Notes under the pieces: generated by a model
Database searches by the model: none
The model's input: only the letters and a program-made list of their open reading frames with translations
Told to the model about the DNA's origin: nothing
NCBI GenBank assembly: GCA_030373145.1
Contig: JAUCZK010000028.1
Span: 1-32,096 of the forward strand
DNA length: 32,096 nt
DNA from: Cyanobium sp. CZS48M
GTDB lineage: Bacteria > Cyanobacteriota > Cyanobacteriia > PCC-6307 > Cyanobiaceae
Direction: 5' to 3'
Shown here: piece after piece, positions 22,193-29,870 of the stretch
Position numbering within the stretch: the first letter of the stretch is position 1
Layout of the letters: every line of letters begins with the position of its first letter
Translations under genes and position numbers: made by a program

Positions 22193-22264
22193 AGCCGGCT
22201 AACGGATTTGAACCGATGGCCTTCGCTTTACAAAAGCGCTGCTCTACCACTGAGCTAAGCCGGC
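22193..22264 (-). tRNA. tRNA-Thr (anticodon TGT)
   Basis: A 72-base cloverleaf on the minus strand starting GCCGGCTTAGCTCAGTGG. The acceptor stem GCCGGCT pairs perfectly with AGCCGGC, and the anticodon arm GCGCT / TTTGTAA / AGCGA carries TGT. The T arm ends CGGTTCAAATCCG. No CCA is encoded. It lies between the mini LuxR gene and mrpC, all on the same strand. Confidence 0.97.
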
Positions 22265-22276
22265 ACGGGGGAGAGC

Positions 22277-22477
22277 CTATCGCTCGCCCCGTGCCCAGAG
22301 CAGCAGCTGAGATCGATTGCTGCAGCCTGCCTTGGCCAGCAGGCTCGACACATGGCTCTCCACGGTCCTGGGGCTCAGCACCAGTTCCGCGGCGATGGCC
22401 TTGTTGCTCAGGCCCCGCACCAGCCAGCCCAGCACGCGCTGCTCCGCCGGTGTGCAGAACGTCTCTACCAGGGACAT
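22277..22477 (-). CDS. Mini LuxR-type helix-turn-helix regulator
   Basis: A 66-residue protein that is only a GerE/LuxR DNA-binding domain. LTPAEQRVLGWLV is matched here by CTPAEQRVLGWLVRGLSNKA, and IAAELVLSPRTVESHVSSLL forms the recognition helix. No receiver or ligand domain is present. GAGGG eight bases upstream supports the start. Cys8 and Cys52 are the only cysteines. Short LuxR-type regulators in cyanobacteria include PedR, which is controlled by thioredoxin; whether this is related cannot be decided. It lies 12 bases before tRNA-Thr, downstream of minE by 80 bases. Confidence 0.82.
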   Translation of the reverse strand: MSLVETFCTPAEQRVLGWLVRGLSNKAIAAELVLSPRTVESHVSSLLAKAGCSNRSQLLLWARGER

Positions 22478-22557
22478 GGTTCAACCCTCAACGGTTCGCC
22501 CCTGAGGATTCCCACCTGCCTGGGCCTTGGCCCTCTCCGGGGTGGCTCGGGCGCGCC

Positions 22558-22863
22558 TCAGATGGTGGCCATGGAGGGATCGCCACCCGGGGGCAGTGGT
22601 TTGGGGCGTGCCCGCTTGATCGGCAGGTTGGCCACCAGGGCGGTGACGCGGTCCTCGGTTTCAAGGCTCACGTCCCCTTCCTCCAGATCGATTTCCACGT
22701 AACGGGAGACCACCTCCAGGATTTCCCGGCGCATCTGCTCCAGTAGCTCGGGGTTGAGGTCGCTGCGGTCGTGGGCCAGCACCAGTTGCAGCCTCTGGCG
22801 AGCCATGCCCGCACTGGCGGGCTGACGACCGAGCAGCTTGTCGATGAAATCGCGCAAGGTCAT
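22558..22863 (-). CDS. minE: Cell division topological specificity factor MinE
   Basis: A 101-residue MinE. It begins with an amphipathic helix, [14 protein letters not shown], then [20 protein letters not shown], the anti-MinCD stretch, and a C-terminal dimerisation domain with [13 protein letters not shown]. It stimulates MinD ATPase to drive the Min proteins off the membrane, so that the septum forms at midcell. It follows minD by six bases. The tail after residue 83 is Pro/Lys-rich. Confidence 0.95.
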
Positions 22864-22869
22864 CGCGGC

Positions 22870-23703
22870 TCAGAAGATTTTGGTGTGCATCAGGCGCCCC
22901 AGCTTGGCGCGCAGGCCCTGGCCCTCCTTGGAGGGGTCGGCCAGGGGCACCTCTTCACCACGCAGTCGGCGGGCCACGTTGGTGTAGGCCTGGCCCGCCG
23001 GGGAACGGCTGCCGTTGAGGGTGAGAGGTTCGCCCCGGTTGGTGGAGACGATCACCTGCTCGTCCTCCAGCACCAGGCCCAGCAGTGGCAGGGCAAGGAT
23101 GTCGGTGACATCGCTGACCGAGAGCATCTCCTGGTTGGCCATCATGCGCGGACGCACCCGGTTGAGCACCAGCTGAATGGGCTCGATCCCGCGGGTCTGC
23201 AGCAGACCGATCACCCGGTCGGCATCCCGCACCGCCGACACCTCCGGGGTGGTCACCACCAGGGCTTCGCGGCAGGCGGCGGCCGCGTTCTTGAAGCCGT
23301 CCTCGATGCCCGCCGGGCAGTCGATCAGCACGTAGTCGAACTGCTCAGCCAGCAGATCCGTGATCTTTTTCATGTCCTCGGGCGTCAGCCACTCGAGCAT
23401 GCGGGGGTTACCGGCCGGCAGCAGCGAGAGGTTGGGCTCCTGCTTGTGCTTCACCAGGGCCTGCTCCAGGCGGCAGCTGCCGGAGAGCACCTCCTGGGCG
23501 GTGTAGACGATCCGGTTCTCCAGCCCCAGCAGCAGATCAAGGTTGCGCAGGCCGAAGTCGGCGTCGAGCACAGCCGTGCGGGCCCCCTGCTTGGCCAGGG
23601 CAACGCCCAGGTTGGCCGTGAGGGTGGTTTTGCCGACACCACCTTTGCCGGAACAGATCAGAATCGCGCGGCTCTGTGTGCTCGTCACGGGTTTGCCAGA
23701 CAT
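22870..23703 (-). CDS. minD: Septum site-determining ATPase MinD
   Basis: A 277-residue MinD. The deviant Walker A motif CSGKGGVGKTTL and the AVLDADFGLRNLDLLLGLEN region are clear, followed by VLIDCPAGIEDGF (Walker B) and a C-terminal amphipathic helix (GLRAKLGRLMHTKIF) for membrane binding. It recruits MinC and is recycled by MinE. The start is taken at MSGKPVTS; a GTG six codons in, or an ATG 21 bases upstream, are alternatives. In other cyanobacteria minC precedes minD. Here a divergent phospholipase D-like gene starts only ten bases away, and minC is over two kilobases upstream. Confidence 0.96.
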   Translation of the reverse strand: MSGKPVTSTQSRAILICSGKGGVGKTTLTANLGVALAKQGARTAVLDADFGLRNLDLLLGLENRIVYTAQEVLSGSCRLEQALVKHKQEPNLSLLPAGNPRMLEWLTPEDMKKITDLLAEQFDYVLIDCPAGIEDGFKNAAAACREALVVTTPEVSAVRDADRVIGLLQTRGIEPIQLVLNRVRPRMMANQEMLSVSDVTDILALPLLGLVLEDEQVIVSTNRGEPLTLNGSRSPAGQAYTNVARRLRGEEVPLADPSKEGQGLRAKLGRLMHTKIF

Positions 23704-23713
23704 GCCTCTGATT

Positions 23714-24736
23714 ATGACCCCCATCCCCGGCCAGCCCCCGCTGGATCAGCCCGGATTCCATCAACGCCTGCTGGTGATGCCCGACGACGGCATCGAAGCC
23801 ATTGTGAATTTGATCGATCAGGCCAGTGAGCAGCTGCTGCTCAAGCAGTTCAAGCTGCAGTCCGAGGCGCTGGTGGAGGCGCTGATGGGGGCCCATACAC
23901 GGGGGGTCGTTGTTCGTGTGATGCTCAATCCCCACACCTCAGGAGGGGACCGCTGGAATGATCAGACTTTCGCCAGGTTGCAAGCAGCAGGCCTGGATGT
24001 GTCGTGGACCAGTGACTCCTTCCCGGTGACCCATGAGAAGTCCATGGTGGTTGACGATCATCTGGCCCTGATTTCCACCTTCAATCTTGCAGATAAATAT
24101 TTCACCCAGACGCGCGACTATGCGGTGGTCAGCACCTCCGCTTCTGTGGTTGAACAGGTGCGCGCCGGCTTTGAGGCCGACTGGCAACGTTCTTTCTTCG
24201 AGCCCAATCTGGAGGTTGGCCTGGTCTGGAGTAGCTATCACAGCCGTGGACAGATGGCGCGACTGGTGGATTCTGCCGAGCGCACGCTCTGGATCCAACA
24301 TCCCAAATTTGTTGACGCCGTGATTCTTGAGCGGATCATCTCCGCCCGCGAGCGGGGCGTGAAGGTGCGCGTGCTCTGTGGCGGCAAGCACGGAATCAGC
24401 GACTGGGACATCTTCGACACCTTCGCTTCCCTGCGGCTGATGGCGCGTTTCGGGGTGAAGGTTCGGCGGCAGAAGCATCTCAAGCTCCACGCCAAGCTGA
24501 TCCTCGTGGATGGGGTCTCTGCCCTGATCGGTTCAATGAACATCGACCGCAGTGCCTTCGACCTTCGCCGGGAGCTGGGCATCGAAACCGATGCCCCTCA
24601 AGTGGTGTCACGCCTCAAGGACACCTTTCAGCACGACTGGGACCGTGCCAAAAAGTATCGCGCGCCCGATCCCCTGGATCCCTCCCAGCACGAGATTGGC
24701 GAGCTGCCTCCCGATCCCCACTTCGTTCACGAGTGA
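23714..24736 (+). CDS. Phospholipase D / cardiolipin synthase-like protein
   Basis: A 340-residue soluble-looking protein with two HKD motifs: His107, Lys109 and Asp114 (HEKSMVVDDHLALISTFN), and His259, Lys261 and Asp266 (HAKLILVDGVSALIGSMN). Two motifs in one chain are typical of phosphatidyl transferases such as cardiolipin synthase, and of PLD nucleases; which of these applies is unknown. No membrane anchor or signal peptide is visible. The ATG at 23714 lies ten bases from the minD start; another ATG at 23702 is in frame. The stop overlaps the next gene as GTGA. Codons look less GC-rich than those of the min genes around it (for example an ATAAATATTT stretch at 24095-24104), suggesting transfer. 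Confidence 0.85.
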   Translation: MTPIPGQPPLDQPGFHQRLLVMPDDGIEAIVNLIDQASEQLLLKQFKLQSEALVEALMGAHTRGVVVRVMLNPHTSGGDRWNDQTFARLQAAGLDVSWTSDSFPVTHEKSMVVDDHLALISTFNLADKYFTQTRDYAVVSTSASVVEQVRAGFEADWQRSFFEPNLEVGLVWSSYHSRGQMARLVDSAERTLWIQHPKFVDAVILERIISARERGVKVRVLCGGKHGISDWDIFDTFASLRLMARFGVKVRRQKHLKLHAKLILVDGVSALIGSMNIDRSAFDLRRELGIETDAPQVVSRLKDTFQHDWDRAKKYRAPDPLDPSQHEIGELPPDPHFVHE

Positions 24737-25305
24737 CCAACCTCTCACCGCCGCCCAACCATCGCCAGTTGCTGATCGGCATGGCCCAGGTGGCCCTCTC
24801 CTCCTTTGGTGGGGGCCTCTCGGCCTGGAGCCAGCGCATCGTCGTCGACCAGCGACGCTGGATGAGTGATGAGGAGTTCCTCACCGGCCTGACGGTGGCC
24901 CGACTCTTCCCCGGGCCCAATCAGATCAATATGGCCGTGTATATCGGCGCCTACTTCCAAGGCCTAACTGGGGCGATGGCCGCTCTGGCCGGCATTCTGC
25001 TGACTCCGTTCAGTTTGTTGATGGCGCTGGGGCTGATCTATTTCCAGGTGCACCAGATCCCGGCGGTGGATCGAGTGTTGGCCGGGGTGGTGGCCGCGGC
25101 TGCCGGGATGGCCCTCTCGATGGGATTCAGGATTCTGGGCAGTTACTGGCGCGACCCAATCGCCCTGGCCCTGGCGGCTGCCACTTTTGTGGCTCTGGCC
25201 GTGGTTCAGGTGCGTCTGATCCCCCTGGTGCTGGTGGCAGGGCCAGTGGCGATGGCCTGGTATTGGCCGCGGCCAGGCTCGCCTGGGGGGGTGGCTTCGA
25301 AATGA
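24733..25305 (+). CDS. chrA: Chromate transporter family, ChrA half protein 1
   Basis: A 190-residue membrane protein of the short-chain CHR family. The signature SFGGGLSAWSQRIVVDQRRW (in part) and LFPGPNQINMAVYIG, with PGP at residues 60-62, are visible. About five or six hydrophobic segments follow. Full-length ChrA proteins have two such halves in one chain; short ones are encoded as pairs of adjacent genes, as here. The family exports chromate, though many members lack tested function. The start is a GTG overlapping the PLD stop (GTGA), and its stop overlaps the next gene as ATGA, so the three genes are probably translated together. Confidence 0.86.
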   Translation: MTNLSPPPNHRQLLIGMAQVALSSFGGGLSAWSQRIVVDQRRWMSDEEFLTGLTVARLFPGPNQINMAVYIGAYFQGLTGAMAALAGILLTPFSLLMALGLIYFQVHQIPAVDRVLAGVVAAAAGMALSMGFRILGSYWRDPIALALAAATFVALAVVQVRLIPLVLVAGPVAMAWYWPRPGSPGGVASK

Positions 25306-25886
25306 TGGAGGCCTGCACTCAGCTGCGCCAGGGAGACTGGAGCCAGTTGCTGGAGGTCATCAGAACCTTTCTTTCTTTGTCGCTGTTTTCCCTGGGCGGT
25401 GGTAACACTCTGCTGGCGGAGTACCACCATCTCAGTGTCGATCAGTACTGCTGGCTCACCCCCTCGCAGTTCGCTGATCTCTATGCGCTCGCGGAGGCGG
25501 CTCCGGGCCCCAGCTCGATGATTGTCGGTCTGCTCGGAATGGGGGCCGCCTGGCGAGAGGGCCCTCTCTGGGCCCTGTTGAGTGCCTATGCCGCTGAGCT
25601 GGCGGTGCTGCTGCCCTCCACCCTGCTGATGGTGCTGGCCTGCCTGAGTTGGAACACACTGAAGGATTCCCCCTGGCGCCTTGCTTTCGAGAGGGGGATG
25701 GGGCCGATCACTCTGGGGATCCTGTTCTCTGTGGGGGTGAAGATCCTTCAGACCTCCAACCATGGTCTGCCGGCCTATGCGGTGTCGATCGCGGTGTGCG
25801 TGTTGATGCTGCGCACCCGCCTTTCGCCGCTGTGGTTCATGGCTGTGGCCGGATTGCTGGGGGGGTTGGGAGTGATCAACCGTTGA
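25302..25886 (+). CDS. chrA: Chromate transporter family, ChrA half protein 2
   Basis: A 194-residue partner of the preceding gene. SLFSLGGGNTLLAEYHHLSV, PSQFADLYALAEAAPGPSSM (PGP at residues 68-70) and several hydrophobic spans give the same half-ChrA pattern in a distinct version, as expected for paired short-chain CHR proteins. The start ATG overlaps the previous stop as ATGA; a longer frame from 25263 is less likely. Its 3' end overlaps the 3' end of minC on the other strand by 11 bases. Confidence 0.85.
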   Translation: MMEACTQLRQGDWSQLLEVIRTFLSLSLFSLGGGNTLLAEYHHLSVDQYCWLTPSQFADLYALAEAAPGPSSMIVGLLGMGAAWREGPLWALLSAYAAELAVLLPSTLLMVLACLSWNTLKDSPWRLAFERGMGPITLGILFSVGVKILQTSNHGLPAYAVSIAVCVLMLRTRLSPLWFMAVAGLLGGLGVINR

Positions 25887-26559
25887 AGGGCGGCCAGCTC
25901 GGCTCGGCTGGATCGATGCGAATCACCCCATCCACCAGGCGGGCCTGTTCGCAGTACCCCTGCGGGGGTGAATCCTCCGGTCCCCTGGCGATCACCGCGG
26001 CGATGCGCAGTTGCAGGGGCCGCAGCTGAAGGGCCACGATCCTGGAGTTGGGGTCACCGTGGCAGCCGGCATGGGCCACCCCCCGCAGCCGGCCCCACAC
26101 GAGCACGTGCCCGCCGGCGCTGACCCGGGCTCCCGGGTTGACATCCCCAAGCACCAGGGCCGTGCCCTGCACCTGGAGGTGATCGCCGGAGCGCAGGGTG
26201 CCCCGCTGAATCACCAGATCGGGTCTGGGGTCGGAGTGGGCACCGGCTTCTGGGGCGCTCGCTAGCTGCAGGTCTGTGGCCAGGCCGATGGCCGCCGCCG
26301 CCACCAGGGTGAGGGCCTGGCGGCCAGCCACGCCGATCAGCTGGAGCTGGTGGGCGGCCAGCTGGCGCTCCAGGGCGCGTAGCTCGGTCACCGTCAGCAG
26401 CCAGTCGCCGCTCTGGAGCAGCAGGGCTCCGCTGCCGTTCACCCCATTGAGGCCCCGCTGTAGCTGCTGGGGCAGGGGAGCGGCCTCAGGGCCCGGTGCC
26501 GGCAGCAGCAGCTGGTGGGGCAGGCCGCTGCGGGCGGCAGGCACGAACTCAGCAGCCAT
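25876..26559 (-). CDS. minC: Septum formation inhibitor MinC
   Basis: A 227-residue MinC. The C-terminal beta-helix domain (about residues 113-205) is unmistakable: LVIQRGTLRSGDHLQVQGTA in part, LVLGDVNPGARVSAGGHVLV, WGRLRGVAHAGCHGD and VALQLRPLQLRIA. The N-terminal domain (about 10-100) is divergent, as usual. With MinD it blocks FtsZ assembly away from midcell. Its tail, PAEPSWPPFNG, is read through DNA that also encodes the end of the second chrA gene. It begins 23 bases after the HD protein stop on the same strand. minD and minE, its usual followers, lie beyond the inserted block. Confidence 0.92.
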   Translation of the reverse strand: MAAEFVPAARSGLPHQLLLPAPGPEAAPLPQQLQRGLNGVNGSGALLLQSGDWLLTVTELRALERQLAAHQLQLIGVAGRQALTLVAAAAIGLATDLQLASAPEAGAHSDPRPDLVIQRGTLRSGDHLQVQGTALVLGDVNPGARVSAGGHVLVWGRLRGVAHAGCHGDPNSRIVALQLRPLQLRIAAVIARGPEDSPPQGYCEQARLVDGVIRIDPAEPSWPPFNG

Positions 26560-26582
26560 CGCCGCATGCGAAGGAGCCCAAC

Positions 26583-27854
26583 TTAGGCAGCGCCATGGCC
26601 CCTGCCCCCCAGGGCCCTGGCCCGCTCCCGCAGGGCTTCACTCACCTCGGGGGGGTGGATCAACCAGGCCAGCTCCACCGGCTTCACCAGGCTGGCCACC
26701 AGCGGGGAGCACTCCTCCAGGGCTGCCAGAGAGTCCCCATCCCAGAGCCGCAGCCCACCTTTGTAGGGGTCGTAGCCACGGTTCTGACGCTGCTGCAGGG
26801 CGCAGCAGAGGCTGGGCTTCAACCCGGCTGCCTCGCTCAGCCGCTGGGCCAGGGCCAGCAGCTCCAGCCGCCCACCGGCCCCCAGGTGGCTGACGTCACT
26901 GGCCCGCAGCAGACGCCGATCCAGCAGGCGCCCGCAGAGCTCCTGCAGGTCAGTGGGGCCCTCCTCCCGCCAGCGCACCAGGTGATAGCCCGTGCGCAGG
27001 TCGTCGTTGGCCAGGTAGGTCTCCAGGTCGAGGCTCCCAGGGCGCCACAGCCATGCCGCCATCACCGCATCGGCGTCGACGCCGCCCTCGGGTCCGAGGC
27101 GGCGGGCCAGCTGGATCGTCTGGGTCAGCAACCAGTTGCAGACCACATTGAGCCGGTGGTTGTAGAGGCTGCGGTACATCAGGCTGCGCACCACCAGGTA
27201 GTGCTCCACCGCCATCAGTCCCTTCGGGTGCAGCGCCAGGTTGCCGTCGGGAGCCACGGTCAGGGCCCCCAGGATCCGCTCCAGGTCCAGCTGGCCATAG
27301 CGGGTACCGGTGCTGTGGCTGTCCCGCAACAGGTAATCGAACCGGTCGCAATCGAGCTGGCCGCTCACCAGGGAGGCCAGCGCCGGCTGGCGGTGCATGC
27401 CGTGCTCCAGCAGGTCGGCCACGGCATCGGCGCTGCCGGGGGCATGGCGCTCGAGGGGCTCCCGCAGGGCGGGGTGCTCCCGCACCAGCCGGGCCGACCA
27501 GGTTTCATGGCGCAGCCCATACATCTCCTCGCCTGAGTGGCTGAGCGGGGCGTGGCCCACGTCGTGCAGGAGGGCCGCGGCGTAAAGGACCCCTTGATCC
27601 TCTGCCAGCTGGGGGGCCTGGCGCTCCAGCTGGCGCAGGGCCAGCCGCGCCAGATGCAGCACCCCCAGGGAATGGGTGAAGCGACTCGACTCGGCGCCGT
27701 GGAAGGTGAGGAACGCCGGCCCCAGCTGACGGATCCGGCGCAGGCGCTGGAAAGGGGCCGTGTCGATCAGCTCCATGGCCAGGCCTTCGGCTGGATCGTT
27801 GCGCTCCAGCCGGATCGCTCCGTGCAGGGGATCGTGATACGTGCGCTGGCTCAT
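26583..27854 (-). CDS. HD-domain phosphohydrolase
   Basis: A 423-residue HD-superfamily protein related to dNTPase/SAMHD1-like enzymes. It begins SQRTYHDPLHGAIRLE, a typical (I)xDPVHGxI start, then PFQRLRRIRQLG. The metal site is RFTHSLGV and AALLHDVGHAPLSHSGE, with a later Asp in LDCDRFDYLLRDS. The substrate is unknown; related proteins act on deoxynucleotides or other nucleotides. It overlaps ctpA by four bases, so they are probably co-translated. The order HD, ctpA, petB, petD is common in picocyanobacteria. Confidence 0.9.
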   Translation of the reverse strand: MSQRTYHDPLHGAIRLERNDPAEGLAMELIDTAPFQRLRRIRQLGPAFLTFHGAESSRFTHSLGVLHLARLALRQLERQAPQLAEDQGVLYAAALLHDVGHAPLSHSGEEMYGLRHETWSARLVREHPALREPLERHAPGSADAVADLLEHGMHRQPALASLVSGQLDCDRFDYLLRDSHSTGTRYGQLDLERILGALTVAPDGNLALHPKGLMAVEHYLVVRSLMYRSLYNHRLNVVCNWLLTQTIQLARRLGPEGGVDADAVMAAWLWRPGSLDLETYLANDDLRTGYHLVRWREEGPTDLQELCGRLLDRRLLRASDVSHLGAGGRLELLALAQRLSEAAGLKPSLCCALQQRQNRGYDPYKGGLRLWDGDSLAALEECSPLVASLVKPVELAWLIHPPEVSEALRERARALGGRGHGAA

Positions 27855-29113
27855 GTCGGGGGGAGCTCCGGCAGCAGCTGCTCGGCGGCCAGCTCCAGCC
27901 AGGGGTCGTCATCCCCGCCGGGATTGAGTGGTTCCGGCTGGGGCAGCAGCCGGTCGGGCGCGATGCCCTGGTTCTGGATGTCACGGCCGCTGGGGGTGCG
28001 GTAGCGGGCCACGGTCACGGCCAGGCCACTGCCGTCGCCCAGGTTGATCAACGTCTGGATCAGCCCCTTGCCGAAGGTGCGGCTGCCCAGCAGGGGTGAG
28101 CGGCCGTCGTCCTGGAGGGCGCCCGCCAGGATTTCGCTGGCGCTGGCGGTGCCCCCGTTCACCAGGGTGACCATCGGGCCGCCATAGAGCTGGCCGGCCG
28201 CAGCCTGCCTCCGCTCACTCAATCCTTCGCGGTTCATGGTCTCCACGATCGGCTGGGCGGCGAGGAAGGCATTGGCCACCGCCACTCCCCCCTCCACAAG
28301 ACCGCCGGAGTTGTTGCGCAGATCAAGAATCACCCCCTCCACGCCCTCCTGAGCGAAACCCTGGAGAGCCTCCCGCACCCCAGCGGGAACCGGCTCGCTG
28401 AACTGGGTGATGCGCAGCAGTCCCAGGAGATGGCCCCCGCGCTTGAGCAGCCTGGTGCGCACGGGTTGCAACTCCACCCGCTGCCGCCTGAGCAACACCA
28501 GCCTGGGTTCCGCCTCGGGGTCGGGGGGCTGGATCAGCAGCTGCACACTGGTGCCGGACGCACCCCGCAGCCGAGCGGCCGTGGCCTCCAGCCCAAGGAT
28601 CCGGCAGGGTTCACCCTCCACCTCCAGCACCTCGCTGCCCGAGCTGATGCCGGCTTCGGCGGCCGGTGATCCATCCAGCGGCGCGATCACCACGATCCCC
28701 TGCCCGTCTTCCGCGAGGCTCAGCTGCAGGCCGACGCCGCTGACGCTTCCCTCCGTGGTGGCGCGCAGGGCCTTGTAGTCGGCGGGGCGCAGCAGCCGGG
28801 TGTAGGGATCGCCGATCGGCTCGAGCATCGAGGCGATGGCGTCGTAGGCCTCGATACTGGTTTCGATCGGCTGCTCCAGGGCCTTCTGGCGCAGGCGCCG
28901 CCAGTGAACAGTTTCAAAACGTGTGGGGTCGACATAGCTCTGGTTGACCAGCCGCCAGGCCTCCACCACCAGCTGCTGGGCATCGTTGAGGGCCAGGGCC
29001 GGGCTGGGCTGCAGCCCCAGGCCCAGCCCCAGGCCGAGCAGCAGGGCCAGCGCCACAACAGCTCGTTTTGTCCAGGTGATCTGCGGGTTGCAGCGGGGCT
29101 GGGGCGGGCTCAT
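27851..29113 (-). CDS. ctpA: Carboxyl-terminal processing protease
   Basis: A 420-residue secreted serine protease. Residues 1-42 form a signal peptide (ARG/LYS then ALALLLGLGLGLGL, cleaved near ALA-LND). A PDZ domain covers about 120-210 (VSGVGLQLSLAEDGQGIVVI in part). The catalytic site is Ser324 in NGGTASASEI and Lys349 in FGKG, spaced as in D1 proteases. It trims the C-terminus of the D1 precursor in the thylakoid lumen, needed to build the oxygen-evolving cluster. The ATG at MSPPQPRC gives a proper signal peptide; a longer frame crosses into the petB promoter. Paralogs CtpB and CtpC are possible. Confidence 0.9.
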   Translation of the reverse strand: MSPPQPRCNPQITWTKRAVVALALLLGLGLGLGLQPSPALALNDAQQLVVEAWRLVNQSYVDPTRFETVHWRRLRQKALEQPIETSIEAYDAIASMLEPIGDPYTRLLRPADYKALRATTEGSVSGVGLQLSLAEDGQGIVVIAPLDGSPAAEAGISSGSEVLEVEGEPCRILGLEATAARLRGASGTSVQLLIQPPDPEAEPRLVLLRRQRVELQPVRTRLLKRGGHLLGLLRITQFSEPVPAGVREALQGFAQEGVEGVILDLRNNSGGLVEGGVAVANAFLAAQPIVETMNREGLSERRQAAAGQLYGGPMVTLVNGGTASASEILAGALQDDGRSPLLGSRTFGKGLIQTLINLGDGSGLAVTVARYRTPSGRDIQNQGIAPDRLLPQPEPLNPGGDDDPWLELAAEQLLPELPPT

Positions 29114-29195
29114 GGCTGACAAGCTGGGGGCGGGGCGGCAATCACGACCGCAGCGCGGCTTTCGGTAGACTCTCGCAACCCAAACCCAGCACTGC

Positions 29196-29870
29196 ATGGC
29201 GAACTCGTCTCCCGCCGCCAAGTCGTCTCCCGTTTTCGACTGGTTCGAGGAGCGCCTGGAACTCCAGGCGATTGCGGACGACATCTCCTCAAAGTACGTG
29301 CCGCCCCACGTCAACATCTTTTATTGCCTCGGTGGCATCACTCTGGTCTGCTTCCTGATCCAATTCGCCACTGGATTTGCGATGACCTTCTACTACAAGC
29401 CCACCGTGGCTGAGGCCTACTCCTCGGTTCAGTACCTCATGACTGATGTCAGCTTCGGCTGGCTGATCCGCTCGGTGCATCGCTGGAGCGCCAGCATGAT
29501 GGTGCTGATGCTGATCCTGCACGTTTTTCGTGTGTATCTCACCGGTGGCTTCAAGCGCCCCCGCGAGCTCACCTGGGTCACCGGTGTGGTGATGGCGGTG
29601 ATCACAGTGTCCTTTGGCGTCACCGGCTACTCCCTGCCCTGGGATCAGGTCGGTTACTGGGCTGTGAAGATTGTTTCGGGCGTTCCCGCCGCCGTTCCAG
29701 TGGTCGGCGATTTCATGGTTGAACTGCTGCGTGGCGGAGAGAGCGTCGGTCAAGCAACCCTCACCCGCTTCTACAGCCTGCACACCTTCGTGATGCCTTG
29801 GCTGCTGGCTGTGTTCATGCTGATGCACTTCCTGATGATCCGCAAGCAGGGCATCTCAGGTCCTTTGTGA
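29196..29870 (+). CDS. petB: Cytochrome b6
   Basis: A 224-residue four-span heme protein of the cytochrome b6f complex. [12 protein letters not shown] is matched by [20 protein letters not shown]; Cys44 (in IFYC) is the heme c-n ligand, and His95 and His109 sit in [20 protein letters not shown], with the other heme His pair in [10 protein letters not shown] and [11 protein letters not shown]. The first nine residues (ANSSPAAKS) extend beyond the usual 215-residue form. It carries electrons from plastoquinol. It diverges from ctpA over 82 bases, and petD follows after 69 bases. Confidence 0.98.

Follow-up and report, generated by a model that had tools for sequence, protein, structure and literature searches.

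A PLD–CHR gene cassette between minC and minD in Cyanobium sp. CZS48M: probably an old insertion, often lost by deletion

Gene content of the split min locus

The stretch of DNA analysed here (the window: 32,096 nt of Cyanobium sp. CZS48M contig JAUCZK010000028.1, to which all window coordinates refer) contains a min cell division locus in which three plus-strand genes, encoding a PLD-like protein and two halves of a CHR-family transporter, separate minC from minD. Comparison with relatives makes it probable that this block is an old insertion that has mostly been inherited vertically and has often been lost by deletion. An earlier note on this DNA had given the order as minE and minD on the minus strand, a PLD gene and two ChrA genes on the plus strand, and minC on the minus strand, and the coordinates of the open-reading frames (ORFs) and the family models bear out both order and strands. 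The features of the locus are as follows.

22558..22863, minus strand: minE; PF03776 88.9 bits and TIGR01215 92.9 bits, both above cut-off
22870..23688, minus strand: minD; GTG start, with an in-frame ATG at 23703; TIGR01968 352.9 bits, above cut-off
23711..23716, minus strand: −10-like CATAAT of a putative minD promoter, overlapping the PLD start codon
23714..24736, plus strand: PLD-like protein, 340 aa; PF13091 (PLDc_2) 167.6 bits; two HxK(x4)D motifs
24733..25305, plus strand: N-terminal half of a CHR transporter; GTG start; PF02417 107.7 bits; TIGR00937 positions 6–167
25302..25886, plus strand: C-terminal half of a CHR transporter; PF02417 107.5 bits; TIGR00937 positions 200–368
25876..26559, minus strand: minC; PF03775 (MinC_C) 96.8 bits
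26583..27854, minus strand: HD-domain protein; PF01966 47.7 bits; adjoins minC in most genomes compared
27851..29200, minus strand: ctpA, named in the earlier note and placed by synteny, upstream of the HD gene and minC on the same strand

Pfam cut-offs were passed by MinE, PLDc_2, Chromate_transp (twice), MinC_C and HD, and NCBIfam cut-offs by the MinE and MinD models, while minC narrowly missed that of NCBIfam TIGR01222 (86.8 bits, cut-off 95.25). The likelier start of minD, judged from the aligned loci, is the GTG at 23688 rather than the ATG at 23703, because it occupies the same place in nearly all loci displayed and is conserved across genera, and because in-frame stops lie upstream of it in most of the sister-genus loci displayed. 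The PLD start codon is 10 bp from the minD ATG and 25 bp from the likelier GTG, and at the other end of the block the C-terminal CHR half and minC share 11 bp (25876–25886) in a tail-to-tail overlap. The HD gene and the genes that we take to be ctpA, petB and petD (names from the earlier note) lie on the minC side, and the window proteins recover the same order in relatives. The ctpA ORF spans 27851–29317, and the start at 29200 inside it is provisional. On the far side of minE, between it and a tRNA-Thr gene (22193–22264), is a free-standing minus-strand ORF of 66 aa at 22277–22477 with a LuxR-type helix-turn-helix (PF00196, 58.8 bits).

The three cassette genes

The three plus-strand genes are read as one operon; in the window, 4-nt overlaps join PLD to the N-terminal CHR half and that half to the C-terminal one. 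The "two ChrA genes" of the earlier note stand in that both carry the CHR domain, with scores far above the PF02417 (Chromate_transp) cut-off of 28.6 bits, but they match opposite halves of one transporter rather than two complete ones. Because the two ORFs align to the N- and C-terminal parts of the one-piece chromate transporter model TIGR00937, at scores below its cut-off, they look like the two halves of a single transporter, and each of the 40 carriers checked encodes the halves as separate genes. From its family, the protein would be an anion transporter with an oxyanion substrate.

The PLD-like protein has its two HxK(x4)D motifs at H107/K109/D114 and H259/K261/D266, as the PLD superfamily requires, and hydropathy revealed no hydrophobic stretch. 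The predicted structure is a two-domain PLD fold (pLDDT 83.9, pTM 0.86), whose nearest solved fold is 7e0m, a phospholipase D (TM score 0.75 on the query, 19% identity). Assignment as a cardiolipin synthase, NucT or DrmC was rejected, as the protein stayed below the NCBIfam cut-offs for all three (72 of 290, 51.6 of 211 and 81 of 133 bits, respectively).

Selection was estimated as omega by the Nei–Gojobori method in pairs of the window with three genomes of its own genus (G005, G008 and G004; the C-terminal CHR half of G008 is cut by a contig end). Values were 0.13–0.16 for PLD, 0.09–0.13 for the N-terminal and 0.05–0.14 for the C-terminal CHR half, within the span of 0.04–0.34 for the flanking genes, and by this measure all three cassette genes are under purifying selection.

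Distribution of the cassette and the ancestral gene order

PLD was found in 87 of 251 genomes of the family, spread over 16 of 59 genera (one of the 87 being a fragment, in G052), and the C-terminal CHR half in 86 of the 251. All 64 PLD-bearing genomes in an order-level draw of 200 belong to this family, and a class-wide draw of 291 genomes yielded six matches at E ≤ 1e-35, again all from the family and none from relatives outside it. A scan of named records, limited to the best 80 of 81 matches and giving 81 records with the window, showed the full order and orientation of minD, PLD, the two CHR halves and minC in 67. In 77 PLD sits at min, which for two of them is judged from minC only, their contigs ending before minD. 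Of the 14 records without the full order, contig ends truncate eight, L096 (Synechococcus sp. 1G10) retains PLD alone, L097 has a C-terminal CHR half that aligned in two pieces, and in four (L104, L118, L125, L163) the DNA surrounding the cassette contains no min gene. Carriers, many of them freshwater picocyanobacteria, are named Cyanobium, Vulcanococcus, Synechococcus (including S. lacustris), Aphanothece and, once, 'Microcystis elabens', besides uncultured bins. One record titled as a Bifidobacterium breve bin (L162) holds cyanobacterial DNA with the cassette, minC, HD, ctpA and petB, and its binning or title is probably wrong. Searches of the open-licence PubMed Central literature listed no paper with a title or displayed abstract on this arrangement; the cassette is a well-conserved module without a described role in the literature searched.

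The idea that the insertion is recent or peculiar to this genome does not survive these counts, whereas the premise of the earlier note that minC normally lies next to minD was confirmed. Outside the family, among the best-scoring 24 of 70 loci, minC lies on the same strand within 1.5 kb upstream of minD in 17 and was undetected in the stretch covered in the other seven, and neither PLD nor CHR was seen in any of the 24; in the sister group, minC adjoins minD in 31 of 31 rows. Adjacency of minC and minD is the ancestral order, and for that reason the block is an insertion, as the earlier note had supposed.

A backbone tree was built from six flanking proteins (81 rows with at least four of the six, which dropped G008 and G066; a quick method, unrooted and without bootstrap). 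One branch, with an SH-aLRT support of 100, divides 31 rows without a cassette between minD and minC from 50 rows that include every carrier at that junction. Within the 50, full-length PLD lies at the junction in 34 (31 full cassettes and three with PLD only), remnants in four, and nothing in 12. The full cassette of G204 has a stop codon inside PLD; a stop flagged in G144 lies at the N-terminal edge, outside the aligned stretch, and may only precede the start. At least 11 changes of cassette state are needed on this tree, a count that on an unrooted tree cannot by itself separate gain from loss. A cassette tree (41 rows with at least two of the three cassette proteins, which dropped G001, G002, G006, G007 and G075) broadly follows the backbone tree for the carriers at the minD–minC junction.

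Composition bears on the rival reading, drawn from the earlier note, in which a recent arrival of foreign genes disrupted the min operon and left minD and minE dependent on a new promoter. In the window, the third-position GC content (GC3) of PLD (0.739) and the CHR halves (0.791 and 0.785) is lower than that of minD (0.883) and minC (0.838), which favours this account, but minE (0.804) and petB (0.781) overlap the CHR range. Among 13 other loci, a lower GC3 in the block recurred in G005 and G008, of the same genus, and in G193, a transferred copy, and the difference was small or absent in the rest. With PLD in so many genera, a recent foreign island is ruled out by distribution and, for most relatives, by composition, and we regard the account as highly improbable. 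The earlier note had also allowed that the same block in most related genomes, with normal composition, would make it an old, stable arrangement; the comparison supports the age but not the stability.

Losses and scars

Within the window's own genus, the cassette is complete in G000, G005, G004 and, to its contig end, G008; G002, G006 and G007 have PLD without CHR, G001 has a PLD stub with a stop codon, and G003 a degraded PLD start. Scars were sought by setting the match of each spacer to a cassette against the highest score among 20 shuffled versions of that spacer. Three spacers scored well above their shuffles (G001, 165 versus 29.2 bits; G052, 1076 versus 31.9; G075, 253 versus 28.3), and the scar of G003 was modest (35.6 versus 27.4 bits). 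In several cases the direction is therefore that of loss, because remnants of the cassette are present. In G052 (L069), an internal deletion has left the first half of PLD directly followed by the final 102 bp of the C-terminal CHR half.

The spacers between PLD and minC in G006, G007 and G002 also matched cassettes above their shuffles (41.0 versus 29.2, 51.8 versus 30.1 and 35.6 versus 25.6 bits), and these were not counted as scars because the end of the C-terminal CHR half lies largely within the minC reading frame. Among sister-group spacers, only that of L192 exceeded its 20 shuffles (27.4 versus 26.5 bits, E 0.14), and seven g31 loci examined held no trace of the cassette beyond the shared minD promoter stretch. 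Two cassette-less g59 genomes (G116 and G066; L195 and L197) keep about 340–410 bp between minC and minD, and these spacers resemble a carrier (41.0 and 40.1 versus 31.0 shuffled bits) only near the minD side.

Cassettes at other positions

In two sister-group genomes (G182 and G193; L201 and L200), the cassette lies between minC and HD. Their MinC, MinD and HD proteins are nearest to other g35 rows, and in the freshwater cassette tree their cassette falls, on a long branch, within a set of 33 rows supported at 100/100. Because the cassette nests among freshwater copies while the flanking proteins are closest to g35, it was transferred, and its landing place was this same row of genes. A deeply separated cassette lies away from min in G277, G278 and AG-673-A03, and the cassette is elsewhere in FGCU52, FGCU6 and G567 too; in five of these six genomes the min locus has minC beside minD, and in AG-673-A03 no minD was found at E ≤ 1e-60.

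These cases could be taken to mean that the min region is a favoured landing site at which the cassette arrived several times by transfer. The copies of G193 and G182 in the same gene row speak for it, as do FGCU52, FGCU6 and G567, where the cassette is elsewhere and minC stays beside minD. The cassette tree, however, broadly follows the backbone for carriers at the minD–minC junction, losses at that same junction left scars in several cases, and a single gain followed by many losses is the simpler history. The block in the window is moreover not framed by a pair of long repeats and holds only the three genes, with no recombinase, so that a mobile element with either hallmark was rejected, its ends having been examined in the window only. 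Repeated arrival is accordingly unlikely.

Expression of minD and minE

A TANNNT element 26–29 nt before the minD start was present in all 44 loci without the block at the junction, in 4 of 4 with scars and in 25 of 35 with the block, or 73 of 83 overall; seven neighbouring 4-nt windows, used as controls, gave at most two hits in any group. The window is among the ten misses, with CATAAT from −28, and it shares with G005 and G008 this form shifted by two bases. Two further misses carry TTAACCT or CTAACCT close to that position but, at the reference position, none of the usual start codons. The minC stop codon TGA of G089 and of G193 begins with the base that ends the TANNNT element.

Because loci with and without the block share the position of the −10-like element, in most genomes the cassette apparently lies upstream of a minD promoter that also exists without it, and the element would be the active promoter of minD. 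The new promoter that the earlier note invoked for minD and minE is not supported on this ground for most carriers, and may exist in five carriers of one basal lineage (g25, g44 and g33); their lack of the usual element also favours a recent insertion, against which its constant position elsewhere counts. In these five (L079, L207, L208, L209 and L212), about 680–700 bp separate the aligned ends of minC and HD. Within 22400–26800, the sigma-70 consensus gave one promoter-like site, located in PLD, against an expected 0.5, and the terminator scan one site against an expected 2.5. In Prochlorococcus MED4, strong periodicity is reported for the minD and minE transcripts and a lesser one for minC (PMC2663038), which would fit separate control of minC and of minD/minE without proving it.

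The PLD–CHR module and its possible function

The catalytic lysine of the first PLD motif, Lys109, is kept in all 40 loci with CHR alongside and is replaced by Thr in all three own-genus genomes that have lost CHR (G002, G006, G007); two more rows are motif-less remnants. Among the named records, the lysine is present in the PLD of 79 of 80, the exception being Synechococcus sp. 1G10. PLD omega among the three CHR-less genomes was 0.22–0.44, compared with 0.16 or less in the other pairs computed. Disappearance of the catalytic lysine where CHR was lost hints that PLD and CHR form one functional module, and the two may work together.

As to what the module does, the sole lead from experiment is an analogy: a mutant of the ChrA of Synechococcus PCC 7002 (A1320) is reported to reach 64% of wild-type growth in phosphate deficiency and 99% otherwise (PMC11358556). 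Two marine studies also tie ChrA to low-phosphate niches. By analogy, and with low confidence, the module may handle phosphodiesters and oxyanions, most plausibly in phosphate-limited growth. Membership in the Pho regulon is not supported, as the mean best score of Pho-box-like tandems upstream of PLD in 31 carriers was 11.1 versus 10.4 of 16 in shuffled sequence.

A bolder suggestion, which we hold to be doubtful, is that PLD and the split CHR form a previously undescribed two-part system of a cytosolic phosphodiesterase and an anion carrier for phosphorus or oxyanion stress in freshwater picocyanobacteria, in which the enzyme would be useless without the carrier and, in this genus, a start shared with the minD promoter would co-regulate division and the module. 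Less likely still, and in our view quite improbable, is that the cassette is kept at min by a functional tie to cell division, be it common timing or an enzyme that modifies lipids at the membrane together with MinD. Its position at min in 77 of 81 records could be so explained, and since the −10-like element of minD overlaps the PLD start codon in the window, regulation of the two starts may be partly coupled. Genomes without the cassette, or with it elsewhere, nevertheless keep minC, minD and minE together, the minD–PLD spacer varies from genus to genus, and the persistence of an old order needs no function.

Discussion

Taken together, these comparisons favour a history in which a three-gene operon of a PLD-like enzyme and a split CHR anion transporter would have entered the locus, in the simplest case a single time, ahead of the diversification of the Cyanobium / Vulcanococcus / Synechococcus lacustris group. 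It would have landed where minC ends, in front of a minD promoter that was already there, and mostly vertical inheritance with many losses by deletion would have followed. ctpA–HD–minC and minD–minE would then be two minus-strand transcription units with a divergent plus-strand operon between them.

Several observations weigh against parts of this account. The backbone and cassette trees agree only broadly and differ at weak inner branches (for example at G087 and genus g51), and clean losses without remnants, as in all seven g31 genomes examined, look the same as never having had the cassette, except by the tree. At minD, 10 of 35 carriers are without TANNNT, five of them (in g25, g44 and g33) have nothing similar and may use another promoter, and the consensus promoter scan missed the −10-like element. 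For the module, the loss of the PLD lysine is one evolutionary event, because the three CHR-less genomes form one group in the backbone tree; no Pho-box-like tandem upstream of PLD clearly exceeded shuffled sequence, and the PCC 7002 ChrA may not be the orthologue of the cassette CHR.

The gene order at this locus is unusual and the mechanism ordinary, and the division genes are not visibly broken. The locus shows that a foreign operon can enter a conserved row of division genes and persist there, provided that the gene downstream of it already has a promoter of its own, and a single genus offers a series of intact, decaying and deleted copies. The PLD–CHR cassette itself can be put to the test in non-pathogenic culture strains.

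Comparison with known systems

The picocyanobacterial row of minC, minD and minE with HD, ctpA, petB and petD is matched in gene content, gene order and strand to either side of the block; the window differs from it by the three plus-strand genes, so that minC is not directly upstream of minD on the same strand. With the CHR (chromate ion transporter) family, both window halves share a passing PF02417 match and together cover the N- and C-terminal parts of TIGR00937, and they differ from the NCBIfam chromate exporter models in scoring below the cut-offs and in the two-gene form seen in every carrier checked. The PLD protein shares both HxK(x4)D motifs and the fold with the two-motif PLD superfamily represented by 7e0m, and differs from 7e0m and the named PLD families in its low identity, its sub-cut-off NCBIfam scores and the absence of a hydrophobic stretch by hydropathy. 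The ChrA that studies of marine picocyanobacteria and of PCC 7002 connect with scarce phosphate has the CHR family and a cyanobacterial host in common with the cassette; the split form, the PLD partner and the min locus do not appear in the passages available from those studies.

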